A stretch of DNA of 20,366 nt from positions 1 to 20,366 of IMG/VR virus record IMGVR_UViG_3300042883_000164; one strand, given 5' to 3'. A program made the translations under genes and the position numbers. Source of the DNA: a virus. The notes below the pieces were generated by a model that saw only the letters and a list, made by a program, of their open reading frames with translations, did no database searches and had not been told where the DNA came from. The number at the start of each line of letters is the position of its first letter. Positions within the stretch are counted from its first letter, which is position 1. Positions 8,797-19,671 of the stretch are shown piece by piece.

Positions 8797-8808
8797 TTGG
8801 AGAATAGC

Positions 8809-10011
8809 ATGGACATGAAGCAACTGATCGCTCAAATCGATCACATCGAAAATAAACAAATACTTAATGAGGATGCTCATTATACTACTGCACCAGTCAA
8901 CAATAGACCACAAGTCAGTAAAAGTAACAATCAAACATCTATCTACGAAATGTTGATTAAAGAGTTTGGTTACGATTTAAACGAAGCACCAGCAGTACCG
9001 AATCCGTATCAAGGTGCAGATGCTGCTAAGTTTGCAGCAATGAGCCCGCAAGATCAAGCATGGTTAACTAAAGGTGGTGGCGTTCCTGATATCAACGATG
9101 AGTTTATTTTGGCTCGTGCCCCTAACAAAGGTAAAGCAGCTGGAGGTGCGGCACAACCGGCTGCACCGGCCCAAGTCCCAGCCGGAATTAATCCAGAAAC
9201 GGGTGAGAAATATGATGATGGCACAAATGCTCCGTTACAAGAACCGCCAGGTGCTGAGAAACCGGCAGGGGGAGGCGATACTGGAGAAGTTCCTGGAGTA
9301 ACAACTCAGTCAGGTGCAACGCCAACAGTCCCAGCCGGAATTAATCCAGAAACGGGTGAGAAATATGATGATGGCACAAATGCTCCGTTACAAGAACCGC
9401 CAGGTGCTGAGAAACCGGCCGGAGGGGCAGCACAGCCAGCGGCACCAGCTGCACCAGCTGCTAATAAATCAATGACTCCTGCAATCACTGCTTATGCAGC
9501 CTCAATGGGTCTACTAAAAGGCGGTAAGCCAGATGTTGCTGCTATTAAGAAGTTTCAACAAGACAACGGATTAAAAGCAGACGGTATTATTGGTCCTAAC
9601 ACTGCAGGTGCTATTCTATCTGCACAAAAGCCCGGAATGGCAGGTAGTGGGCGTGGAGGTCAAGGCGGACCAACAGCGGCACAACTAGCACAGGCACCTA
9701 AGCCAGCAGGCGGTGGTGCACAACCGGCTACTGGAAGTGTGAAACCTAGATATAAAACACCTCAAGAATTTGATAAAGAAATTGATAGATTTAGTAAAAG
9801 TGCAAATCCCAACTTACCACCAAATGCAAGATATATTGCTACCTTACAAGCCGAAAAGGCTGCATTGAGCGGCGGTGCACCACAACCGGCGGCACCAGCA
9901 GTTGCAAAACCTGCATTGCCCGGACAAATTAGCGATACCCCGGCGGCAGAAAGTGTCAAATCACAAGATGATGCTATCTTGGAACGAATAAGAACAGCAT
10001 TGTTTAGATAA
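8809..10011 (+). CDS. Pro/Ala-rich protein with peptidoglycan-binding domain
   Basis: The ATG at 8809 is chosen because TTGGAG (8797-8802) makes a good ribosome site for it, whereas the in-frame TTG at 8797 has none. The 400-residue product has a polar helical N-terminus (MDMKQLIAQIDHIE, then a second helix IYEMLIKEFGYDLNEAP), a long low-complexity Gly/Pro/Ala region, and a PG_binding_1-type domain at about 222-272 (AYAASMGLLKGG, IKKFQQDNGLKADGIIGPNT). The C-terminal third is again Pro/Ala-rich with two short helices. A 31-residue segment is duplicated exactly at DNA level. It may anchor a virion component or enzyme to the cell wall; no catalytic domain is present. The operon ends at the terminator just downstream. 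Confidence 0.8.
   Translation: MDMKQLIAQIDHIENKQILNEDAHYTTAPVNNRPQVSKSNNQTSIYEMLIKEFGYDLNEAPAVPNPYQGADAAKFAAMSPQDQAWLTKGGGVPDINDEFILARAPNKGKAAGGAAQPAAPAQVPAGINPETGEKYDDGTNAPLQEPPGAEKPAGGGDTGEVPGVTTQSGATPTVPAGINPETGEKYDDGTNAPLQEPPGAEKPAGGAAQPAAPAAPAANKSMTPAITAYAASMGLLKGGKPDVAAIKKFQQDNGLKADGIIGPNTAGAILSAQKPGMAGSGRGGQGGPTAAQLAQAPKPAGGGAQPATGSVKPRYKTPQEFDKEIDRFSKSANPNLPPNARYIATLQAEKAALSGGAPQPAAPAVAKPALPGQISDTPAAESVKSQDDAILERIRTALFR
9174..9266 (+). repeat. 93-base exact direct repeat, copy 1
   Basis: Identical to 9327-9419, offset by 153 bases (51 codons), so the frame is kept. It encodes 31 residues containing INPETGEKYDDGTNAPLQ. The 60 bases between copies are unrelated. Full identity including silent sites indicates a recent duplication or gene conversion. 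Confidence 0.95.
9327..9419 (+). repeat. 93-base exact direct repeat, copy 2
   Basis: Second copy of 9174-9266. The flanks are also similar (GGAGGxGC...CAxCCxGC, encoding AAQPAAP-like residues before copy 1 and after copy 2), so the ancestral unit may have been longer. Confidence 0.95.
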
Positions 10012-10959: not shown

Positions 10960-11804
10960 TGAGACGTTCAAGCATTAAAACCTCATTTGGCGGAGAAGTT
11001 CCTTTTACTAAATTTATTAGTGAAGATTTGGCCACTCAGCAAAGATTATTAGATGCATTAAATCTTGCCATCGAAGACGGATATACTGTTAAACCGGAAG
11101 ATCCGACTGCAGATTCGAAACGTGTAGATTTAACAGTTCAAGATGCAGAAGGCAATGTTCTACTAGTAATCGAAAGCCAGGATGCTACCGGCTGGTTAGA
11201 CTCTGTGCATGCTAGTAAAATCATGTACTATATGTGGGACAAGGGATGCGAACAAGGTGTAATTTTATCCGAAGATGCCGATGAGTATATCATGAGTTTT
11301 GTAAGGTCTCTTAATACTGATCATAACTTTAGTATCACATTGCTCAAAACACTTATCTACGGCGACGAAAAACCATTCGTTGATTTTGTTCCACTAATAA
11401 GAGGAAGTGATATTGAATACACTTCAAATGTAAGAACTCGAACAGAACCAGATCCTCAAAAAGTAAGTTTATTGCAAGATCTTGCAAATAACAATCCTGG
11501 ATTATTTACTAATGTAACTGGGCGATATGCTAGCCATATTAAATTAGGTGCTAGTTCTATGAACGTTGGTATTGTTCCTTATAAGAATGGCCGATTCTGG
11601 GTCGACATCTGGCATGGTGGAAAACATAATACTGATAATTTTAGAAATACTTTTACAGAATTATGTGACCAAAACGGATGGGAAGCCAAATTCCAGCAAG
11701 CTCGTGCTTATGTAAATGGAGACGGCGGCGTTGCTGCCGACGAAGGTATTCATATCTTTAAAACATTCATGCAAGCATTAAAAGAAAATAAAATTCATGC
11801 CTAA
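10959..11804 (+). CDS. PD-(D/E)xK-like protein with DUF4268-like C-terminal domain
   Basis: This 281-residue protein starts at an ATG overlapping the upstream stop. Residues 50-105 contain RVDLTVQDAEGNVLLVIESQ with D57 and E72-S-Q74, then DSVHASKIMYYMW: this resembles the ExQ variant of the PD-(D/E)xK nuclease core found in DUF4268-type restriction-related proteins, where a conserved His/Tyr helix follows the ENQ strand. The C-terminal part (about 180-275, MNVGIVPYKNGRFWVDIWHGG...FRNTFTELCDQNGWEAKF) resembles the DUF4268 domain. It may be a nuclease or an inactive relative; the Ser within ESQ is acceptable as x, but Q replaces the usual Lys. Its position just before polymerase suggests a DNA-processing or anti-host role. 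Domain calls are from pattern resemblance only. Confidence 0.65.
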   Translation: MRRSSIKTSFGGEVPFTKFISEDLATQQRLLDALNLAIEDGYTVKPEDPTADSKRVDLTVQDAEGNVLLVIESQDATGWLDSVHASKIMYYMWDKGCEQGVILSEDADEYIMSFVRSLNTDHNFSITLLKTLIYGDEKPFVDFVPLIRGSDIEYTSNVRTRTEPDPQKVSLLQDLANNNPGLFTNVTGRYASHIKLGASSMNVGIVPYKNGRFWVDIWHGGKHNTDNFRNTFTELCDQNGWEAKFQQARAYVNGDGGVAADEGIHIFKTFMQALKENKIHA

Positions 11805-11861
11805 CTATACACTAAATAAAAAGTAATGGCAGGCGTGGCCATAATCCGCATTGTAGGTATT

Positions 11862-11885
11862 TGCAAGCCATAAATTGCATAGGAG
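11862..11885 (+). promoter_or_regulatory. Putative gp43 translational operator hairpin plus Shine-Dalgarno
   Basis: TGCAA (11862-11866) pairs with TTGCA (11875-11879) around an 8-base loop GCCATAAA, and AGGAG (11881-11885) follows one base later. T4 gp43 represses its own translation by binding a hairpin with a 5-bp stem and 8-base loop just upstream of its ribosome site; the geometry here is the same, though the loop sequence differs from T4. A second inverted repeat, ATGGC/GCCAT, is at 11826-11842. Confidence 0.4.
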
Positions 11886-11893
11886 AAAACAAT

Positions 11894-14560
11894 TTGTATG
11901 TAGACGCATTTTTTCAGCGTGATGCTGATATCATCAAGATAGTTGAACGTAGTAACGAAGGTAAACGGATATTTAAAGAATATCCAGTTCGCTACACGTT
12001 TTATCATCAAGACCCCAAGGGCAAATATCAAAGTATTTTTGGAGAACCATTGTCACGAGTGGTATCTAAAAACAGTAAAGATTTCCGTAAAGAACTTGCT
12101 ATTCACAGCAACAAAAAACTTTACGAAGCAGATATTAATCCAATCTTTTCAACGTTAAGTGAAAATTATCTAAACGCCGAGGCTCCCAAACTCAATGTGG
12201 CGTTTTGGGATATTGAGGTGGACTTTGATCCAGAACGTGGCTATGCTTCACCCGAAGATGCATTCATGCCAATTACTGCTATCGCTGTTCACCTACAATG
12301 GTTAGACACACTGGTCTGTTTGGCTATGCCTCCCAAGGGCATGTCAGTTGAACAGGCGCAACAATTGGTCAAGGATATTCCCAACACACACATCTTTGAC
12401 AACGAAGCAGACATATTAGATACTTTCTTAAATTTGATTCAAGATGCAGACATCTTAAGTGGTTGGAACAGCGAAGGCTTTGATATGCCTTACACTGTAA
12501 ACCGCATTACCAAAGTGCTCAGCAAGGATGATACTCGCAGACTTTGTCTTTGGGACCAATATCCCAAAAAACGTGAATATGAAAAGTATGGTAAATCGGC
12601 TATCACTTACGACATTCACGGACGGGTGCATTTAGACAGTCTCGAACTGTATCGCAAATACACCTATGAAGAACGGCATACCTATCGACTGGATGCCATC
12701 GGTGAGATGGAGGTAGGGGAGACCAAAACAGTTTACGAAGGTACTCTTGATCAATTATACAAAAATGATTTCCGAAAATTTATAGAATACAACCGTCAAG
12801 ACTGTGCATTGTTAGATAAACTAGATAAGAAATTGAAGTTTATCGACTTGAGTAATAAACTAGCACATGAATGTACTGTGTTGTTACAGACCACAATGGG
12901 TGCTGTGGCTGTTACCGAACAGGCCATTATCAATGAGTGTCATCGCAGAGGCTTCCAAGTTCCCAACAGAATAAAACGCGATGAACTTGAAGACACTGCT
13001 GCCGCTGGTGCATATGTTGCATATCCTAAAGAAGGATTACAAGATTGGGTGGGATCGTTGGACATTAACAGTCTGTATCCGTCAGCGATTCGTGCGCTGA
13101 ACATGGGTCCTGAAACCATTGTGGGACAACTACGTCCGGTACAAACTCAAGAATATATCAATGAACAGACTACTCTTAAGAAAAAATCTTTTGCGGCAGC
13201 GTGGGAAGGCATGTTTGGCAGTATGGAATATGATGCAGTGATGCGTCAAGACAAAGCGTTTGACATTACCATTGATTGGGAAAACGGCGACAAGGATGTA
13301 TTAAGTGCTGCCGAAGTATATCATTTGATTTATGAAAGCAATCAGCCTTGGATGTTAAGTGCAAATGGCACAATCTTTACTTACGAGAAAGAAGGTATCA
13401 TTCCCGGACTGTTAAAGCGTTGGTATGCTGAACGTAAAGAGATGCAGGCCAAACTCAAAGAATGTATCAAAGCAGGCAACAAAGTAGAAGAAGAATATTG
13501 GGACAAGCGTCAGTTAGTTAAAAAGATTAACTTGAACAGTTTGTACGGTGCTATTCTTAACCCAGGCTGTAGGTTCTTTGATAAACGAATTGGTCAGTCA
13601 ACTACCTTAACAGGTCGACAAATTGTCAAACACATGGCCGGTAAAGTAAATGAAATTGTCACAGGCGATTACGACTATCGTGGCAAAGCAATTATCTACG
13701 GTGACACAGACTCATGCTACTTTAGTGCTTACAAAACTCTACAAAAAGAAATTGACAAAGGTAGTATTCCGTGGACTAAAGAAACTGTTATTCAACTTTA
13801 TGATCAAATCGCCGACGAAGTTAATAACACATTCCCACAGTTTATGTTGGATGCATTTCATTGTCCAAAGACACGTGGTGAAGTTATTAAAGCAGGTCGA
13901 GAAATTGTTGCCTCAAAAGGACTGTTTATTACTAAAAAGAGATATGCAGTACTGTATTACGACAAAGAAGGAAAACGAACAGACGTCGACGGCAAGCCAG
14001 GTAAGATCAAAGCCATGGGACTGGATCTGAAACGTAGTGATACGCCAGAATTTATTCAAAACTTTTTAAGTGATGTGTTGGAGAAAGTCTTAACTGGTAC
14101 TACCGAACAAGAAGTATTGGATCATATTACTGAATTCCGCACTAACTTCAAAGCCCGCCCCGGTTGGGAAAAAGGTTCGCCTAAACGTGCTAACAATGTT
14201 TCGGCATATCGAGGCAAAGAAGAAAAGGCAGGCAAGACCAATATGCCAGGACACGTTCGAGCAAGTCTCAACTGGAACACTCTCAAACGCATGTATGATG
14301 ACAAATACTCCATGAATATCACAGACGGACAAAAGGTCATTGTGTGCAAACTAAAAGCAAATCCGCTGGAGTATACATCTGTAGCGTATCCTGTAGATGA
14401 ACTGAGATTGCCTAAATGGTTTCAAGATCTACCATTCGATCACGAAGAAATGGAACAGACGATTATTGACAACAAATTAGATAACCTTATCGGTGTTCTA
14501 AACTGGGACGTCAAGAGCACCGAAGAAAAAAATACATTTAATAAATTATTTGACTTCTAA
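11894..14560 (+). CDS. 43: Family-B DNA polymerase, T4 gp43 type
   Basis: This is the replicative polymerase with proofreading. From the TTG at 11894 it has 888 residues, near the T4 length of 898. The 3'-5' exonuclease motifs are FWDIE (D106, E108), GWNSEGFD (N192, D197) and YNRQD (Y299, D303). Polymerase motif A is DINSLYPS (390-397), motif B KKINLNSLYG (543-552), motif C YGDTDS (602-607), and ITKKRYAVL is the KKRY region. The C-terminus TFNKLFDF resembles the clamp-binding tail of RB69 gp43 (FDMFDF). The start is odd: no in-frame ATG fits, while TTG at 11894 lies eight bases after AGGAG and aligns with the T4 N-terminus. A TTG at 11861 would have no ribosome site. A hairpin upstream suggests self-repression. 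The clamp gene follows directly. Confidence 0.97.
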   Translation: MYVDAFFQRDADIIKIVERSNEGKRIFKEYPVRYTFYHQDPKGKYQSIFGEPLSRVVSKNSKDFRKELAIHSNKKLYEADINPIFSTLSENYLNAEAPKLNVAFWDIEVDFDPERGYASPEDAFMPITAIAVHLQWLDTLVCLAMPPKGMSVEQAQQLVKDIPNTHIFDNEADILDTFLNLIQDADILSGWNSEGFDMPYTVNRITKVLSKDDTRRLCLWDQYPKKREYEKYGKSAITYDIHGRVHLDSLELYRKYTYEERHTYRLDAIGEMEVGETKTVYEGTLDQLYKNDFRKFIEYNRQDCALLDKLDKKLKFIDLSNKLAHECTVLLQTTMGAVAVTEQAIINECHRRGFQVPNRIKRDELEDTAAAGAYVAYPKEGLQDWVGSLDINSLYPSAIRALNMGPETIVGQLRPVQTQEYINEQTTLKKKSFAAAWEGMFGSMEYDAVMRQDKAFDITIDWENGDKDVLSAAEVYHLIYESNQPWMLSANGTIFTYEKEGIIPGLLKRWYAERKEMQAKLKECIKAGNKVEEEYWDKRQLVKKINLNSLYGAILNPGCRFFDKRIGQSTTLTGRQIVKHMAGKVNEIVTGDYDYRGKAIIYGDTDSCYFSAYKTLQKEIDKGSIPWTKETVIQLYDQIADEVNNTFPQFMLDAFHCPKTRGEVIKAGREIVASKGLFITKKRYAVLYYDKEGKRTDVDGKPGKIKAMGLDLKRSDTPEFIQNFLSDVLEKVLTGTTEQEVLDHITEFRTNFKARPGWEKGSPKRANNVSAYRGKEEKAGKTNMPGHVRASLNWNTLKRMYDDKYSMNITDGQKVIVCKLKANPLEYTSVAYPVDELRLPKWFQDLPFDHEEMEQTIIDNKLDNLIGVLNWDVKSTEEKNTFNKLFDF

Positions 14561-14595: not shown

Positions 14596-15324
14596 ATGAA
14601 AGACATTTTACAAGACATCGTAGCACACACTCATAGTCTAGGCTTTTTGCCTCTGGTTAAGATTACCAGCGAAAGCGAAACCATTATTGAATCAATCGCC
14701 GAAGATCGATCAGTAGTAGTGCAGGCAAAGACACATAAATTGGTTGACGAATTCGAAGGTGTATTTGGAATGCCTAATTTAGACAAGTTGGCATTGCATT
14801 TGAAAAATCCAGAGTACAAAGAAAATGCAAAAATTGCAGTAGTTAAAGAGCAACGCAACGGCAAAGAGATCCCAACTGGATTGCATTTTGAAAATACCAT
14901 TGGAGACTTTGTCAATGATTATCGATTCATGGTGGCCGAAATTATTAATGAGAAATTAAAAACTGCCAAGTTTAAAGGTGCTAATTGGGACGTAGAATTT
15001 CAACCAAGTGTTGCCAGTATTCAACGACTTAAATTACAGGCTCATGCTCACAGTGACGAAACTACGTTCCAAGTTAAAACTGAAAACGGTAACTTGATTT
15101 TCTTCTTTGGGGATGCCAGTACTCACGCAGGTAGTTTTACATTTCAGTCTGATGTTAAAGTTAAATTTAAACACAATTGGGCATGGCCGGTGACGCAAGT
15201 TATCAGCATCTTAAATCTAGGTGGTGACGTCACTATGCGTATTACTGATCAAGGTGCTATGCAGATCACCGTTGATTCGGGTCTTGCGGAATACAACTAC
15301 ATCTTACCAGCACAGAGTAAGTAA
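14596..15324 (+). CDS. 45: DNA polymerase sliding clamp, T4 gp45 type
   Basis: This 242-residue protein has the size and character of T4 gp45 (228 residues), the trimeric ring that tethers gp43 to DNA and also serves as the mobile activator of late transcription. Supporting features are the two-domain beta-rich pattern, an N-terminal helix segment, the central LKLQAHAHSDETTFQV region, FQSDVKVKF, and the typical C-terminal clamp ending (DVTMRITDQGAMQITVDSGLAEYNYILPA). It has its own promoter and an AAGGA ribosome site. In T4, regA, 62 and 44 lie close by in the same cluster, with 44 and 62 next to 45; here the clamp follows polymerase directly and the clamp-loader genes are not in the window. 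Its stop overlaps the DpdA start by one base. Confidence 0.92.
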   Translation: MKDILQDIVAHTHSLGFLPLVKITSESETIIESIAEDRSVVVQAKTHKLVDEFEGVFGMPNLDKLALHLKNPEYKENAKIAVVKEQRNGKEIPTGLHFENTIGDFVNDYRFMVAEIINEKLKTAKFKGANWDVEFQPSVASIQRLKLQAHAHSDETTFQVKTENGNLIFFFGDASTHAGSFTFQSDVKVKFKHNWAWPVTQVISILNLGGDVTMRITDQGAMQITVDSGLAEYNYILPAQSK

Positions 15325-17006
15325 TGAATAAAAATCTGACAGCACAGCAAAGCGATTACGCATACTTCTTGCCGGCTACATCAGGTTTCTACTCAACGTT
15401 CATAGGCAAACAACGCTATGGAAACTATGTAGATCCTGCACGTATACCACCAAGTTTAGTAAATGGTGTAGAAAGTCTCAACTATCTAAATCCAGATAAA
15501 GGTGCATTTTACTTTGATCATTGCCTATACTCTGCAGGACATGCTAACTTAGATCTTACTAAGCCAGACGAAACAGAAGATATGTTTCGTAATAGAGATC
15601 GCAGTACCTCGTGGGTATTAGGTGACTCGGGTGGATTCCAGATTGGTAAAGGTGTATGGGAAGGCGAATGGCGTGACCCCACAGGTCCAGAAGTTGCTGC
15701 CATGTGGGCAGAAGTCAATGCCAAAGGTGTTGAACTTGTACCACAACTGCACCCTACTGGCGATCCTAAGACTGACAAGAATGGGAACCCCAAGTACACC
15801 AAAGTAGATCATCCCAAACTGTATCAAGCCCGTTTAGATGCCGCACAAAAGAAGCGTGAACAAGTATTGACTTGGATGGATGCACTTATGGACTATGGTA
15901 TGGTGCTTGATATTCCAGCATGGGTAGAACGTAGTCCCGCAGGACGTAAGGCAACTGGTATTGAATCGTATCAACAGGCAGTAAATGCCACTAGATTTAA
16001 TAACGAATACTTTATTAAACATCGTAATGGCAACTGCAAGTTCTTAAATGTTTTACAAGGTGAAACACACGATCAAGCAGATGATTGGTATCAACAGGTC
16101 AAAGACTTTTGTGATACTAAGGTCTACGGTGACAAAGCGTTTAATGGTTGGGGCATGGGCGGACAGAACATGTGTGATATCCATCTTGTACTCAAACGAC
16201 TAGTGGCTCTACGCTTTGACGGACTGTTAGAACAGGGTCAACATGACTGGATGCACTTTTTAGGTACTAGTAAACTTGAATGGGCTGTGCTACTAACAGA
16301 CATTCAACGTGCTGTTCGTAAGTATCATAATCCAAGTTTTACTATATCGTTTGACTGTGCAAGTCCGTTCTTAGCCACTGCCAATGGACAGATTTATATC
16401 AACACAGAAACTGAAGATCGTACTAAATGGGTCTATCGTATGCAGGCGAGTGCGGATGATAAGAAGTATGCCACTGACAGCCGCTTGTTTAAAGATGCTG
16501 TATTACAAGATGGTATATTTGAAAAGTTTGAAACTAGTCCGATTATTGATCAAATGCAGATGAAAGAAATTTGCATCTATGCGCCAGGCGACCTAAATAA
16601 AAATGGTAAAGAAGGCAAGACATCGTGGGATTCGTTTAGTTATGCACTAATGATGGGACATAATGTTTGGATGCACTTGAACGCAGTACAAGAAGCCAAT
16701 CGACAATATGATTTGGGCAAATTACCTGCCATGTTAGTTGACGAACGCTTCGATAGAGTGTATTATAAGGATGTAGTTGATGCAATCTTTGCTTGTGATA
16801 ATAGAGACGATGCCAATGCAATCGTTGAGTATTACAGTAAGTTTTGGATGACTATTATCGGCACACGTGGTGCAACTGGCAAGAAGACTGTCAATGCACA
16901 CACCAAGGCTGAAGAATTTGGTATTCCTAATGTAGATTTTTCTGACTTAAAAATAGTTAAGAACGAAGAACCTATTGTTACAACTTTTGATAGTTTATTT
17001 GAATGA
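15324..17006 (+). CDS. dpdA: DpdA-like DNA 7-deazaguanine transglycosylase
   Basis: This 560-residue protein has the TIM-barrel tRNA-guanine transglycosylase (TGT) catalytic set: DSGGFQ (101-106) with the base-binding/catalytic Asp101, LDIPAW with D196, VLQGE (243-247), GWGMGGQ (275-281), HFLGTSK (311-317) and SFDCASPF (342-349) in which D344 matches the TGT nucleophile (FDCVxPT). The CxCxxC...H zinc site of true TGT is missing: after D344 only C345, C417 and C491 remain. Together with greater length and a phage context, this points to DpdA, the TGT relative that swaps guanine for preQ0-type bases in DNA, known from the Salmonella dpd cluster and phages such as 9g. Such DNA resists many restriction enzymes. 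The start ATG overlaps the clamp stop, so it is co-transcribed with replication genes. The preQ0 synthesis genes folE, queE and queC are not in the window. Confidence 0.85.
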   Translation: MNKNLTAQQSDYAYFLPATSGFYSTFIGKQRYGNYVDPARIPPSLVNGVESLNYLNPDKGAFYFDHCLYSAGHANLDLTKPDETEDMFRNRDRSTSWVLGDSGGFQIGKGVWEGEWRDPTGPEVAAMWAEVNAKGVELVPQLHPTGDPKTDKNGNPKYTKVDHPKLYQARLDAAQKKREQVLTWMDALMDYGMVLDIPAWVERSPAGRKATGIESYQQAVNATRFNNEYFIKHRNGNCKFLNVLQGETHDQADDWYQQVKDFCDTKVYGDKAFNGWGMGGQNMCDIHLVLKRLVALRFDGLLEQGQHDWMHFLGTSKLEWAVLLTDIQRAVRKYHNPSFTISFDCASPFLATANGQIYINTETEDRTKWVYRMQASADDKKYATDSRLFKDAVLQDGIFEKFETSPIIDQMQMKEICIYAPGDLNKNGKEGKTSWDSFSYALMMGHNVWMHLNAVQEANRQYDLGKLPAMLVDERFDRVYYKDVVDAIFACDNRDDANAIVEYYSKFWMTIIGTRGATGKKTVNAHTKAEEFGIPNVDFSDLKIVKNEEPIVTTFDSLFE

Positions 17007-17248
17007 CATTACCCGACGAAAGATATCGTGCTGTAGTAAAAACTCAGGAGTTCTTAGTAGAGATCCTAAATACTCCTCGAGTTCCTAAAGCAATTAAAGA
17101 TAATGCCCGGTGGTGTCTAAGACACTATCCAAGTGCCTGGGATATGAAACGTGCGGCTGAGAATTGTCCCGATTTATTTCAAGAACGCATGGAACCAGTG
17201 ACTAGGCTTTTTAAACAATACGAAGAAGGCAAGAAAAATGAAGCGTGA
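17003..17248 (+). CDS. BPSL0761-like small protein
   Basis: This 81-residue protein starts in an ATGA overlap with the DpdA stop. Its sequence MTLPDERYRAVVKTQEFL, PRVPKAIKDNARWCLRHYPSAWD follows the pattern of the BPSL0761 family (TxPDERTRAVVxTREFL ... LRHYPS), small bacterial proteins of unknown function that I associate with Burkholderia and relatives. It is helical, soluble and lacks catalytic motifs. Its presence suggests gene exchange with a proteobacterial host. The next gene overlaps its 3' end by 11 bases. Placement between DpdA and a T-fold-like gene makes a link to DNA modification thinkable but unsupported. Confidence 0.75.
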   Translation: MTLPDERYRAVVKTQEFLVEILNTPRVPKAIKDNARWCLRHYPSAWDMKRAAENCPDLFQERMEPVTRLFKQYEEGKKNEA

Positions 17249-17753
17249 TTATTCAGACGGTGTGGCTGACAACGTAATTTTCTTTATTGGCAATGAGGTA
17301 GAGCATACTCCTGCATTTGGCTTGCGTACACTATTTGTTACTGGAGTTCAACCAGTCGACAATATTGCATTAAACTTACACGGATGTGAGCACATCTTTT
17401 TTGGCGCTAATCACAGTTTTAATCCTTCGTTCAACGACTATGATGGTTGGAAGGCTTGGGAAGACATGATCGAATTCTTCCTTAAAAAAGATTATCTATG
17501 TAGTCTTGACATTCCATTATCAGCAGTAGAAGAATTTCACGATGGTGGTCTAAACGAACACGCAAACTTTATTCCACAGATAAGAGTGCCAATTCCTTAT
17601 GTAAAACTTTGGAATTATAATACAATGCTTAAAATAGATGATAAAGATTTTAAGGCAACTAATCCCGGTGTGTGGTCCCACAGTCTACACACACTGATGG
17701 ATCGTAGTAAGTTTACAGACTGGAATCAATATAAGCAGGACAAAGCACTATGA
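17238..17753 (+). CDS. Conserved phage protein of unknown function next to DpdA
   Basis: This 171-residue protein overlaps the BPSL0761-like gene by 11 bases; AAGAAGGCAAG upstream may act as ribosome site. It looks like an alternating alpha/beta protein: NVIFFIGNEVEHT, LRTLFVTGVQP, CEHIFFGANHSFNP, a helix WKAWEDMIEFFLKK, LCSLDIPLSAVEEF, FIPQIRVPIPYVKLWN. Many conserved-looking His, Asp and Asn residues lie at strand ends (H21, H48, H51, H59, D98, H106, H113), which would suit an enzyme. I believe similar proteins occur in aquatic T4-like phages, but I know no function. It could be a partner of DpdA. Confidence 0.7.
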   Translation: MKRDYSDGVADNVIFFIGNEVEHTPAFGLRTLFVTGVQPVDNIALNLHGCEHIFFGANHSFNPSFNDYDGWKAWEDMIEFFLKKDYLCSLDIPLSAVEEFHDGGLNEHANFIPQIRVPIPYVKLWNYNTMLKIDDKDFKATNPGVWSHSLHTLMDRSKFTDWNQYKQDKAL

Positions 17754-17920
17754 AAACAGAAAAAAGCACTGTGAAACCTACAGTAAGCAAAGAAGAAGAC
17801 ATACAACAAGATCAATTGTTAGAACTAATGATTAGACAAAATCAATTACTAGAATCCATTGATTGGAAATTATGGGAATTGTATAAATCGTTAGTTAAAG
17901 ACGAAGAGCCTACTAAATGA
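17750..17920 (+). CDS. Short charged helical protein (56 aa)
   Basis: A 56-residue frame starts in an ATGA overlap with the upstream stop and ends in an ATGA overlap with the next start, so it fills the space between them exactly. The product begins MKTEKSTVKPTVSKEED and continues as an amphipathic helix rich in Leu, Gln and Glu (QLLELMIRQNQLLESIDWKLWELYKSL), probably a coiled coil. Function is unknown; a small adaptor or oligomerisation subunit is possible. The overlaps at both ends are the main support. Confidence 0.7.
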   Translation: MKTEKSTVKPTVSKEEDIQQDQLLELMIRQNQLLESIDWKLWELYKSLVKDEEPTK

Positions 17921-18312
17921 TTATTAAACAAGACATTCGCCCTAACAAAATGATATGGGTTACTTTTCGTAAAGAAGGTATTCACAAATATCCAGCAGCC
18001 GCAACTGATCCCAATTTAGCAACAGGAGACGAATATGACGTTTCGTTTTTGGCTACTCCCCATCGCCATATCTTTCACTTTAGGGTGTGGCTATCTGTTA
18101 CGCATAACGACAGAGACGTGGAGTTCATTCAATTCAAGCGATGGCTTGAAAAACTGTATTCTAGCGACCAAGGTGTATTGTCGTTAGATTACAAAAGTTG
18201 CGAGATGATGTCAGATGATTTATATGACACTATCTCACAAAAGTATCCAGGCCGTGAGGTTTGGATTGAAGTCTCCGAAGACGGAGAAAATGGTTCATTT
18301 ATTAAGTATTAA
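17917..18312 (+). CDS. Divergent QueD/PTPS-like T-fold protein
   Basis: This 131-residue protein resembles a family found in diverse phages with the pattern PHRHxFHxxVxxxVxHxDRDxEFxxFKRWLE ... SCEMxxxDLxxxIxxKYPGR ... VEVSEDGENG. The order of elements parallels 6-pyruvoyl/6-carboxy-tetrahydropterin synthases: an early His (H23), an HxH pair followed by a strand (H49, H51), the DVEFIQFKRWLEKL stretch in place of GMVxDFxxLK, a Glu after Ser-Cys (E96) in place of PTxEN, and a final strand with Glu (WIEVSEDGEN). The catalytic Cys between the first His and the HxH pair, and the DH pair, appear missing, so the reaction may differ or be absent. With DpdA upstream, involvement in 7-deazaguanine supply is an interesting inference. 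Start overlaps the preceding stop (ATGA). Confidence 0.75.
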   Translation: MIIKQDIRPNKMIWVTFRKEGIHKYPAAATDPNLATGDEYDVSFLATPHRHIFHFRVWLSVTHNDRDVEFIQFKRWLEKLYSSDQGVLSLDYKSCEMMSDDLYDTISQKYPGREVWIEVSEDGENGSFIKY

Positions 18313-18325
18313 GGAAAAGGCTATT

Positions 18326-18568
18326 ATGGCTAACGAACATTTGCAAAAATATCTGCGTATGACTAGAGAAGTTTCTACAATTTTTGATGATTTAGATAAT
18401 TTTCTTAATTTCTGCAGGTTTGAATTGCTGCCGTTTAATGAAGCAGATCTTTATAATCGAGGAAGCCCAAGTTGGAGGGCGTATGAAAATTCTAAACGCC
18501 CTCGTAGAGAATATGGCGATCGTAAAGAATGGAAACCACGAGGTAATAACAGTTATCGGTCACGTTGA
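18326..18568 (+). CDS. Small basic phage protein, function unknown
   Basis: The ATG at 18326 is preferred over in-frame upstream starts because AAGGAAAAGG lies just before it and it falls after the previous stop. The 80-residue product has a helical N-terminal half (QKYLRMTREVSTIFDDLDNFLNFCRFELLPFNEADLY) and an Arg-rich, probably disordered C-terminal tail (RPRREYGDRKEW...YRSR) that could contact nucleic acid. I do not recognise a family. The glycosyltransferase gene starts three bases after its stop. Confidence 0.6.
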   Translation: MANEHLQKYLRMTREVSTIFDDLDNFLNFCRFELLPFNEADLYNRGSPSWRAYENSKRPRREYGDRKEWKPRGNNSYRSR

Positions 18569-18570
18569 AC

Positions 18571-19671
18571 ATGACTATATTTCTAATTGATTTAGAAGCG
18601 GTTTCTACTCGCTATACCGGCGAGTGGAAATTACACGTTCCTCAACTACTTAAAAAGACAGGACACAATGTCAACATTATATCAGGTCCTACGGATATTC
18701 CTAGTGCTACCACTCCTGGAGCATTTCTCAACTTTGGCGGCACTAATATATACAAATCTAGTCAAGTGGAGCAGATGGGTCGCTTATTTTGCAACGGATC
18801 CGTTAATCCCGGCGATCATTTTGTGTTTACTGATGCTTGGCATCCAGGTATCATTAATCTAAAGTACATGAGTGAGTTGTTGGGCATTCCAGTAACTACA
18901 CACGGGTTATGGCATGCTGGATCATATGATCCCCAAGATTTCCTAGGGCGTCTTGTTGGCAACAAACCTTGGGTTAGACATGCCGAGAAAAGTTTCTTTC
19001 ATGCATTTGATCACAACTACTTTGCCACAGACTTTCACATTAGAATGTTTGTAGACAACTTGCTAGAAGATGGTTATAAAAGTGAGAATCCTTATTATGA
19101 AGAAGACTACGACGAGTATCAACTTAGTAGTAAGATAGTGCGTACAGGGTGGCCTATGGAGTATATGGATACTACGTTAACTGCATATAAAAATATGCCC
19201 AAGCGTGATCTTATTCTATTCCCACATCGTATTGCTCCAGAGAAACAAGTTGAAATCTTTAGAGATTTAAAACACTGGTTACCACAATATGAATTCGTAG
19301 TATGTCAAGATCAGCAACTAACAAAAAACGAGTACCATAACTTACTAGGTGAAGCAAAACTAGTGTTCAGTGCTAATCTACAAGAAACACTGGGTATTAG
19401 TTGTTATGAAGGTGCTATAGTAGATGCTATCCCTATGGTGCCAGATCGGTTGTCATACAGTGAAATGTATTTTGATACATTTAAATATCCTAGTAAGTGG
19501 ACTGAAAACTATGACACCTACACTGCCTACAGGCCTGATCTATGTCGTGCTATTATATCACATATGGACAATTACAAAACTAGATTGCCTATGTTGAAAA
19601 AACAAACGGAGACTCTACATGAGCAATTTTTCTCAGCCAACAATCTCATCAATAGATTTACCAAGCACTAA
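18571..19671 (+). CDS. GT-B glycosyltransferase (GT4-like)
   Basis: This 366-residue protein is a GT-B-fold glycosyltransferase. The N-terminal Rossmann domain begins MTIFLIDLEA with a typical WKLHVPQLLKKTGHNVNIISG. The C-terminal domain carries LILFPHRIAPEKQ (214-226), with the Arg/Lys pair that usually holds the sugar-nucleotide phosphates, and QETLGISCYEGAIVDAIPMVP with the EX7E motif (E272, E280). The ATG at 18571 is preferred; a TTG at 18565 would overlap the preceding stop. The acceptor is unknown: modified DNA bases, virion proteins or host surface sugars are all possible. The next gene begins within its last 53 bases. Confidence 0.85.
   Translation: MTIFLIDLEAVSTRYTGEWKLHVPQLLKKTGHNVNIISGPTDIPSATTPGAFLNFGGTNIYKSSQVEQMGRLFCNGSVNPGDHFVFTDAWHPGIINLKYMSELLGIPVTTHGLWHAGSYDPQDFLGRLVGNKPWVRHAEKSFFHAFDHNYFATDFHIRMFVDNLLEDGYKSENPYYEEDYDEYQLSSKIVRTGWPMEYMDTTLTAYKNMPKRDLILFPHRIAPEKQVEIFRDLKHWLPQYEFVVCQDQQLTKNEYHNLLGEAKLVFSANLQETLGISCYEGAIVDAIPMVPDRLSYSEMYFDTFKYPSKWTENYDTYTAYRPDLCRAIISHMDNYKTRLPMLKKQTETLHEQFFSANNLINRFTKH

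Follow-up and report, generated by a model that had tools for sequence, protein, structure and literature searches.

A clamp-adjacent DpdA-like phage enzyme and its co-conserved glycosyltransferase: a candidate pathway to glycosylated 7-deazaguanine in phage DNA

Phage DpdA inserts the 7-deazaguanine base preQ0 (PMC6884629), and two described forms of this enzyme lie closest to the locus analysed here. DpdA1 of Enterobacteria phage 9g adjoins the DNA polymerase and clamp genes and is accompanied by Gat-QueC, not by a glycosyltransferase (GT), while the DpdA2 type of Vibrio phage nt-1 (also represented by ACP17 gp123 and X1 WEM34307) combines TGT motifs with a replication context and FolE/QueE neighbours, nt-1 itself possessing QueC and no GT. 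The product of FolE, QueD and QueE is 7-carboxy-7-deazaguanine (PMC13329287), a base which would be the branch point of a pathway that lacks QueC. With regard to the decoration of DNA with sugars, the alpha- and beta-glucosyltransferases of T4 are phage GT-B enzymes with post-replicative action on modified DNA bases and are linked to hydroxymethylcytosine genes, and, according to a paper of 2025, the sugars of hypermodified DNA are attached to hydroxyl handles of 5-hydroxymethyl-dU or -dC (PMC12783734). A full-text search of one open-access collection returned no title or abstract reporting a glycosylated deazaguanine in phage DNA.

The locus compared with these systems lies in a 20,366-nt stretch of jumbo-phage DNA (the window). 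Its best explanation is, with reasonable confidence, the replisome-tethered insertion of a 7-carboxy-7-deazaguanine-derived base into phage DNA, probably followed by glycosylation. The more specific reading, in which a glycosylated 7-deazaguanine reaches phage DNA through a clamp-tethered DpdA, a dedicated GT4-like GT and a 131-aa partner, by a pathway common to two DpdA subgroups of unrelated phages, is given an even chance; the base in that reading is probably built on 7-carboxy-7-deazaguanine.

The DpdA-like enzyme and its placement

The reading frame at 15324–17006 (plus strand) is intact and encodes 560 residues, described here as a putative DpdA-like DNA-guanine transglycosylase on the basis of its translation, fold, homologues and tree position. 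Two TGT motifs occur in TGT order: VLGDSGGFQ supplies D101 (codon 15624–15626), the counterpart of the general acid/base aspartate, and FDCASPFLATANG supplies D344 (codon 16353–16355, within FDCASP), the counterpart of the nucleophile, aligned with DCVMPTRNARNG of E. coli TGT. In the same alignment D196 (codon 15909–15911, within LDIPA) falls on the TGT base-recognition aspartate. None of the 163 unique homologues departs from D101, Q106, D196, W255, H311 or D344, in agreement with the original prediction that D101 and D344 are kept.

As a single sequence, the protein has no match in PHROG, Pfam (including the tRNA-TGT family PF01702), NCBIfam or PADLOC, nor in the PDB by phmmer. A family profile built from a 38-sequence alignment is co-linear with E. 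coli TGT over the DSGGFQ, LQG/IQG, GG and FDC.P..A.NG motifs (hhalign, P = 1.2e-5), a weak resemblance (P ~1e-5), and its matches at E<=1 in the whole PDB are nearly all TGTs (best 0.0058). The AlphaFold2 model (pLDDT 89.2, pTM 0.87) has TGTs as its best 12 PDB matches in Foldseek (12/12), led by 1efz (E = 8e-8, probability 1.00), with TM-scores normalised to the targets of ~0.5. The modelled protein is thus assigned the TIM-barrel fold of the TGT superfamily together with its catalytic aspartates. The tRNA-TGTs (PF01702) share this fold, the catalytic aspartates and the zinc-site His-Asn pair, but differ in having CxCxxC and in forming a separate clade, with no clamp tail and no replication operon.

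The zinc motif was originally said to be lost, and CxCxxC is indeed absent from the window enzyme, though the zinc-site pair H446-N447 is retained in at least 160 of the 163 unique homologues. Zinc cysteines are present in only two of these 163 members, both basal (L202 and L203), and L203 matches the archaeosine TGT model TIGR00432 (2.1e-8). Loss of these cysteines was ruled out as the hallmark of the distinct DpdA subgroup proposed originally, because they are equally missing from DpdA1 of 9g and from DpdA2 of nt-1, ACP17, X1 and L357 (five of five enzymes checked). In a maximum-likelihood tree, whose several long branches advise caution over the deeper joins, the window family forms a third clade (31 rows, 99/98) outside those of DpdA2 (100/100) and TGT (100/100).

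Of the known groups, the family profile is nearer to DpdA2 (hhalign, P = 2.5e-8) than to TGT, and against 9g DpdA1 it shows no detectable similarity beyond one motif. It differs from DpdA2 in having DSGGFQ and LDxP in place of DSGGLQ and FDEIP and in being ~100 aa longer. The same profile recovers DpdA2 of nt-1 and ACP17, and finds no match in Campylobacter phage CP220 or halovirus HVTV-1, the two viruses through which DpdA3 and DpdA4 were compared, a result that is suggestive only. Together, these comparisons of sequence suggest that the window enzyme represents a new DpdA subgroup.

Members of the family were found in at least 595 IMG/VR stretches. A further 13 records of sequenced jumbo phages also hold one, among them PA5oct, Paride, Phosso and Vibrio phage 2.275.O, and none of the phage matches bears a DpdA annotation. 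Scans of IMG/VR for nearest relatives, with the PA5oct and 2.275.O proteins as queries, gave no match. Homologues also occur in ~35 bacterial genomes, mostly of Alphaproteobacteria; a separate full-length canonical TGT is present in all 16 searchable genomes with a homologue, which is therefore not the tRNA enzyme of those bacteria.

The chromosomal branch (L167–L201), found in Alphaproteobacteria, Limnohabitans and Polynucleobacter, often adjoins an uncharacterised partner of 550–640 aa and may represent a system of DNA modification or defence that has so far escaped description. A YhhQ-like transporter lies near some bacterial homologues, those of Rhodobacteraceae among them. In Polynucleobacter (L168:3828-9311), inspection by eye gave the order DNA cytosine methyltransferase-like ORF, 370-aa ORF (which may be a restriction enzyme), 554-aa partner and enzyme. 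In Shinella, the enzyme has beside it a 1330-aa SMC-like ATPase (L176:504-4496) and a divergent 863-aa protein (L176:5352-7943) with no Pfam match, in which a glycosyltransferase-like stretch with a DDD motif was noted by eye.

Replication neighbours and the C-terminal tail

The enzyme gene is preceded by a family B DNA polymerase (11861–14560, plus strand; phrog_262 at 1e-201, PF00136) ending in NTFNKLFDF and, directly upstream, by a PCNA-type sliding clamp (14596–15324, plus strand). Sequence searches placed the clamp protein in no family and it was recognised by structure: its model is of moderate confidence (pLDDT 73.5), and its best 50 PDB matches in Foldseek are all PCNA or other clamps (50/50, E ~1e-9), so that the earlier naming of a clamp fits despite the lack of a database name. 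The final base of the clamp ORF (15324) is the first base of the DpdA-like ATG, and the translational coupling to the replication cluster claimed from the sequence is thus real. Furthermore, the clamp gene accompanies the DpdA-like gene, upstream of it, in 158 of 159 viral loci, and the polymerase, clamp and DpdA genes of phage 9g also stand in a row. The PA5oct homologue of the window clamp (EST35_0314, L082:6915-7661, 36% identity) is annotated as a structural protein on the basis of mass spectrometry. Elsewhere in the window (8797–10011), a protein combines near-identical proline/alanine-rich direct repeats (AGINPETGEKYDDGTNAPLQEPPGAEKPAGG) with a peptidoglycan-binding domain.

The enzyme ends in a tail modelled as disordered (pLDDT <50 for residues 540–560), which carries the predicted clamp-binding-like motif TTFDSLFE (16980–17003, plus strand). 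When the last 70 residues were searched for the pattern Fxx[LIM][FY], it occurred in 96 of 127 unique viral tails, against 5.4 expected and a maximum of 13 in 500 shuffles, and in nine of 12 tails of non-redundant members (0.4 expected); chromosomal members show no enrichment (1 of 36, against 1.5 expected). Relatives of the polymerase bear the same kind of motif at their C-terminus in 147 of 159 cases. A looser form (for example, SLEDLFA) is found in 46 of 54 DpdA2 tails, including the ACP17 type, against 4.0 expected, and the DpdA1 of 9g terminates in LQDLFDE. In T4, gp43, gp55 and gp33 attach to the clamp by C-termini of a similar hydrophobic-acidic kind, which can replace one another (PMC2988020), with further close parallels in the bacterial beta-clamp motif QL(S/D)LF and in the PCNA-bound methyltransferase Dnmt1 (PMC9690074). 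Judged from these sequence patterns, the tail of the phage enzyme would bind the sliding clamp.

Precursor genes, glycosyltransferase and module partners

No folE, queE or queC lies within the window, as originally noted, and the accompanying suggestion that precursor genes lie beyond it proved right: contig L004, which matches the window at 99% identity along 8,972 bp, carries FolE at 11193–11939, equivalent to ~22587–23333 on the window scale and 2.2 kb past its right edge. In this contig a UDP-glucose/GDP-mannose dehydrogenase and a HIT protein are encoded between the GT and FolE. The linkage to precursor genes that marks a DpdA in the functional sense is seen across the records searched, with FolE in 22 of 22 (18 of 18 long viral contigs, which are fragments, and four named phage records) and QueE in 16 of the 18 long contigs, the remaining two of which stop just after FolE (16/16 testable). 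QueE is likewise present in PA5oct, Phosso, 2.275.O, ACP17 and X1; that of a related contig matches all five QueE models with scores under their cut-offs. QueC was not found in 17 of the 18 contigs, in PA5oct or in Phosso, and gave one weak match, while the homologue of Vibrio phage 2.275.O adjoins QueF, YhhQ, QueC and FolE. A phosphoribosyltransferase (L353:9894-10451 and relatives; PF00156, 2e-10), encoded in 31 of 43 complete clusters, could recycle the guanine freed by base exchange, and the 256 kb phage contig G001 holds at least 19 radical SAM matches at 140–225 kb, an unusual density beyond QueE alone.

The window also encodes a GT-B/GT4-like glycosyltransferase of 368 aa (18565–19671, plus strand), so classed by its E-x7-E motif (QETLGISCYEG) and by PF00534 (Glycos_transf_1), which is detected in three of six family members (best 9.4e-6) and not in the window protein itself. 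The GT is present in 18 of 18 long contigs as well as in PA5oct, where its start overlaps the DpdA-like stop, and in Phosso, where it adjoins FolE and QueE at a distance from DpdA; it was not found in Vibrio phage 2.275.O, nt-1 or 9g. In ACP17 and Xanthomonas phage X1, the GT adjoins DpdA2 inside the FolE/QueE cluster. As a query against the phage collection, the GT found only 19 records, ACP17 and X1 among them, and in a scan for the GT alone (many of whose loci belong to the phage group of the window) all 80 loci had deazaguanine genes and none had QueC. Among DpdA2 loci with full flanks, 32 of 33 carry the GT and 0 of 33 QueC, as opposed to QueC in six of six and GT in 0 of six for 9g-type DpdA1. 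After removal of near-copies, 47 loci had the GT only, three had QueC only and none had both (Fisher p = 5e-4, the DpdA1 group being small). This exclusion is not absolute, because PhiXhv-type phages have a distant homologue of the GT beside a Gat-QueC-like gene. In Xanthomonas phage PhiXhv-15 (L315:3669-6903), the gene bearing the annotation fructose-6-phosphate aminotransferase includes a QueC domain (likely Gat-QueC); after it come a sugar deacetylase and the distant homologue of the GT. This may be a further pathway to a glycosylated deazaguanine.

A 131-aa protein with HRHxFHF and SCE motifs (17917–18312, plus strand) follows the same pattern as the GT, being present in 42 of 43 complete clusters and 32 of 33 DpdA2 loci and 54–58% identical in ACP17 and X1. 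A QueD-like identity, proposed by eye from the two motifs, received no support from Pfam, a PDB profile or hhalign. Beside it, a conserved 171-aa protein (17238–17753, plus strand) is found in 140 of 146 loci and 32 of 43 complete clusters. On the strength of their co-occurrence, the GT and the 131-aa protein are assigned to the module; in unrelated phages the two are found with DpdA2 as well, again with no QueC. Like the T4 glucosyltransferases, the GT would act on a modified DNA base; unlike them, it is GT4-like and linked to deazaguanine genes.

Competing explanations and the proposed pathway

The original DpdA-like reading is supported by the fold, the invariant residues, the clustering with FolE and QueE, the link to the replisome, the tree and the separate TGT of bacteria. 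Insertion of preQ0 (or preQ1), with host QueC finishing the base and the GT serving, for example, a host receptor or virion protein, is a possible but distinctly less likely account. It draws on the presence of QueC in many hosts, on the known preQ0 insertion by phage DpdA (PMC6884629) and on the 2.275.O member, a neighbour of QueC, QueF and YhhQ in a phage without the GT; nevertheless, essentially all GT-carrying loci are without QueC yet hold FolE and QueE, and the GT occurs alongside two distinct DpdA families, in phages that are unrelated, and hardly anywhere else. As QueC is missing from the module, the preQ0-type base of the original prediction is not the likeliest one, and 7-carboxy-7-deazaguanine or a derivative would be the most likely.

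As for the enzyme itself, further DpdA subfamilies (DpdA3 and DpdA4) were reportedly defined by Cui et al. in 2023 (a study cited in PMC13329287), and the window enzyme might be a distant member of one of them and hence not new; this appears improbable, given a profile that reaches the DpdA2 of nt-1 and ACP17 and nothing in CP220 or HVTV-1, and given that no phage match is annotated as DpdA. Still less probable is a tRNA-modifying TGT acting on host or phage tRNAs during infection: the fold and chemistry are those of tRNA-TGT, but the clamp-binding-like tail and clamp adjacency, the separate clade, the lack of a PF01702 match, the canonical TGT encoded separately in the genomes of relatives and the zinc cysteines lost as in the DNA-acting DpdA1 and DpdA2 all speak against it. 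The faintest prospect is that FolE and QueE serve folate or host metabolism and that the TGT-like protein has drifted from catalysis to become an accessory of the replisome; the PA5oct FolE does lie near a thymidylate synthase gene, but QueE is not known to act in folate metabolism, and the catalytic residues are all invariant across wide divergence.

In the favoured pathway, a 7-deazaguanine base would be made by phage FolE and QueE, with QueD from the phage or its host. From the fold and residues of the enzyme, D344 would attack C1' of the deoxyribose and guanine would depart with the assistance of D101, the 7-deazaguanine base taking its place. Tethering to the phage sliding clamp, through a C-terminal motif shared with the phage DNA polymerase, would direct the enzyme to newly made phage DNA, and the module probably rewrites that DNA at the fork. 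The base would next be modified by the co-conserved GT and the 131-aa protein, probably through the addition of a sugar, which may yield a DNA decoration so far undescribed, and the modified DNA should be shielded from host nucleases.

If correct, this reading adds to DpdA a widespread branch with hundreds of viral contigs and chromosomal homologues, and may provide the first sugar-decorated deazaguanine in DNA. The clamp tether would explain how a phage DpdA picks new phage DNA, by a peptide of the same kind as that of the polymerase, comparable to the use of PCNA by Dnmt1. Since the enzyme and the GT are both encoded by PA5oct and Paride, isolates with a record of laboratory study, the prediction is directly testable, and the laboratory phage ACP17 (DpdA2 type) also carries genes of the module. 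The modification may, furthermore, bear on the escape of PA5oct and Paride from host defences.
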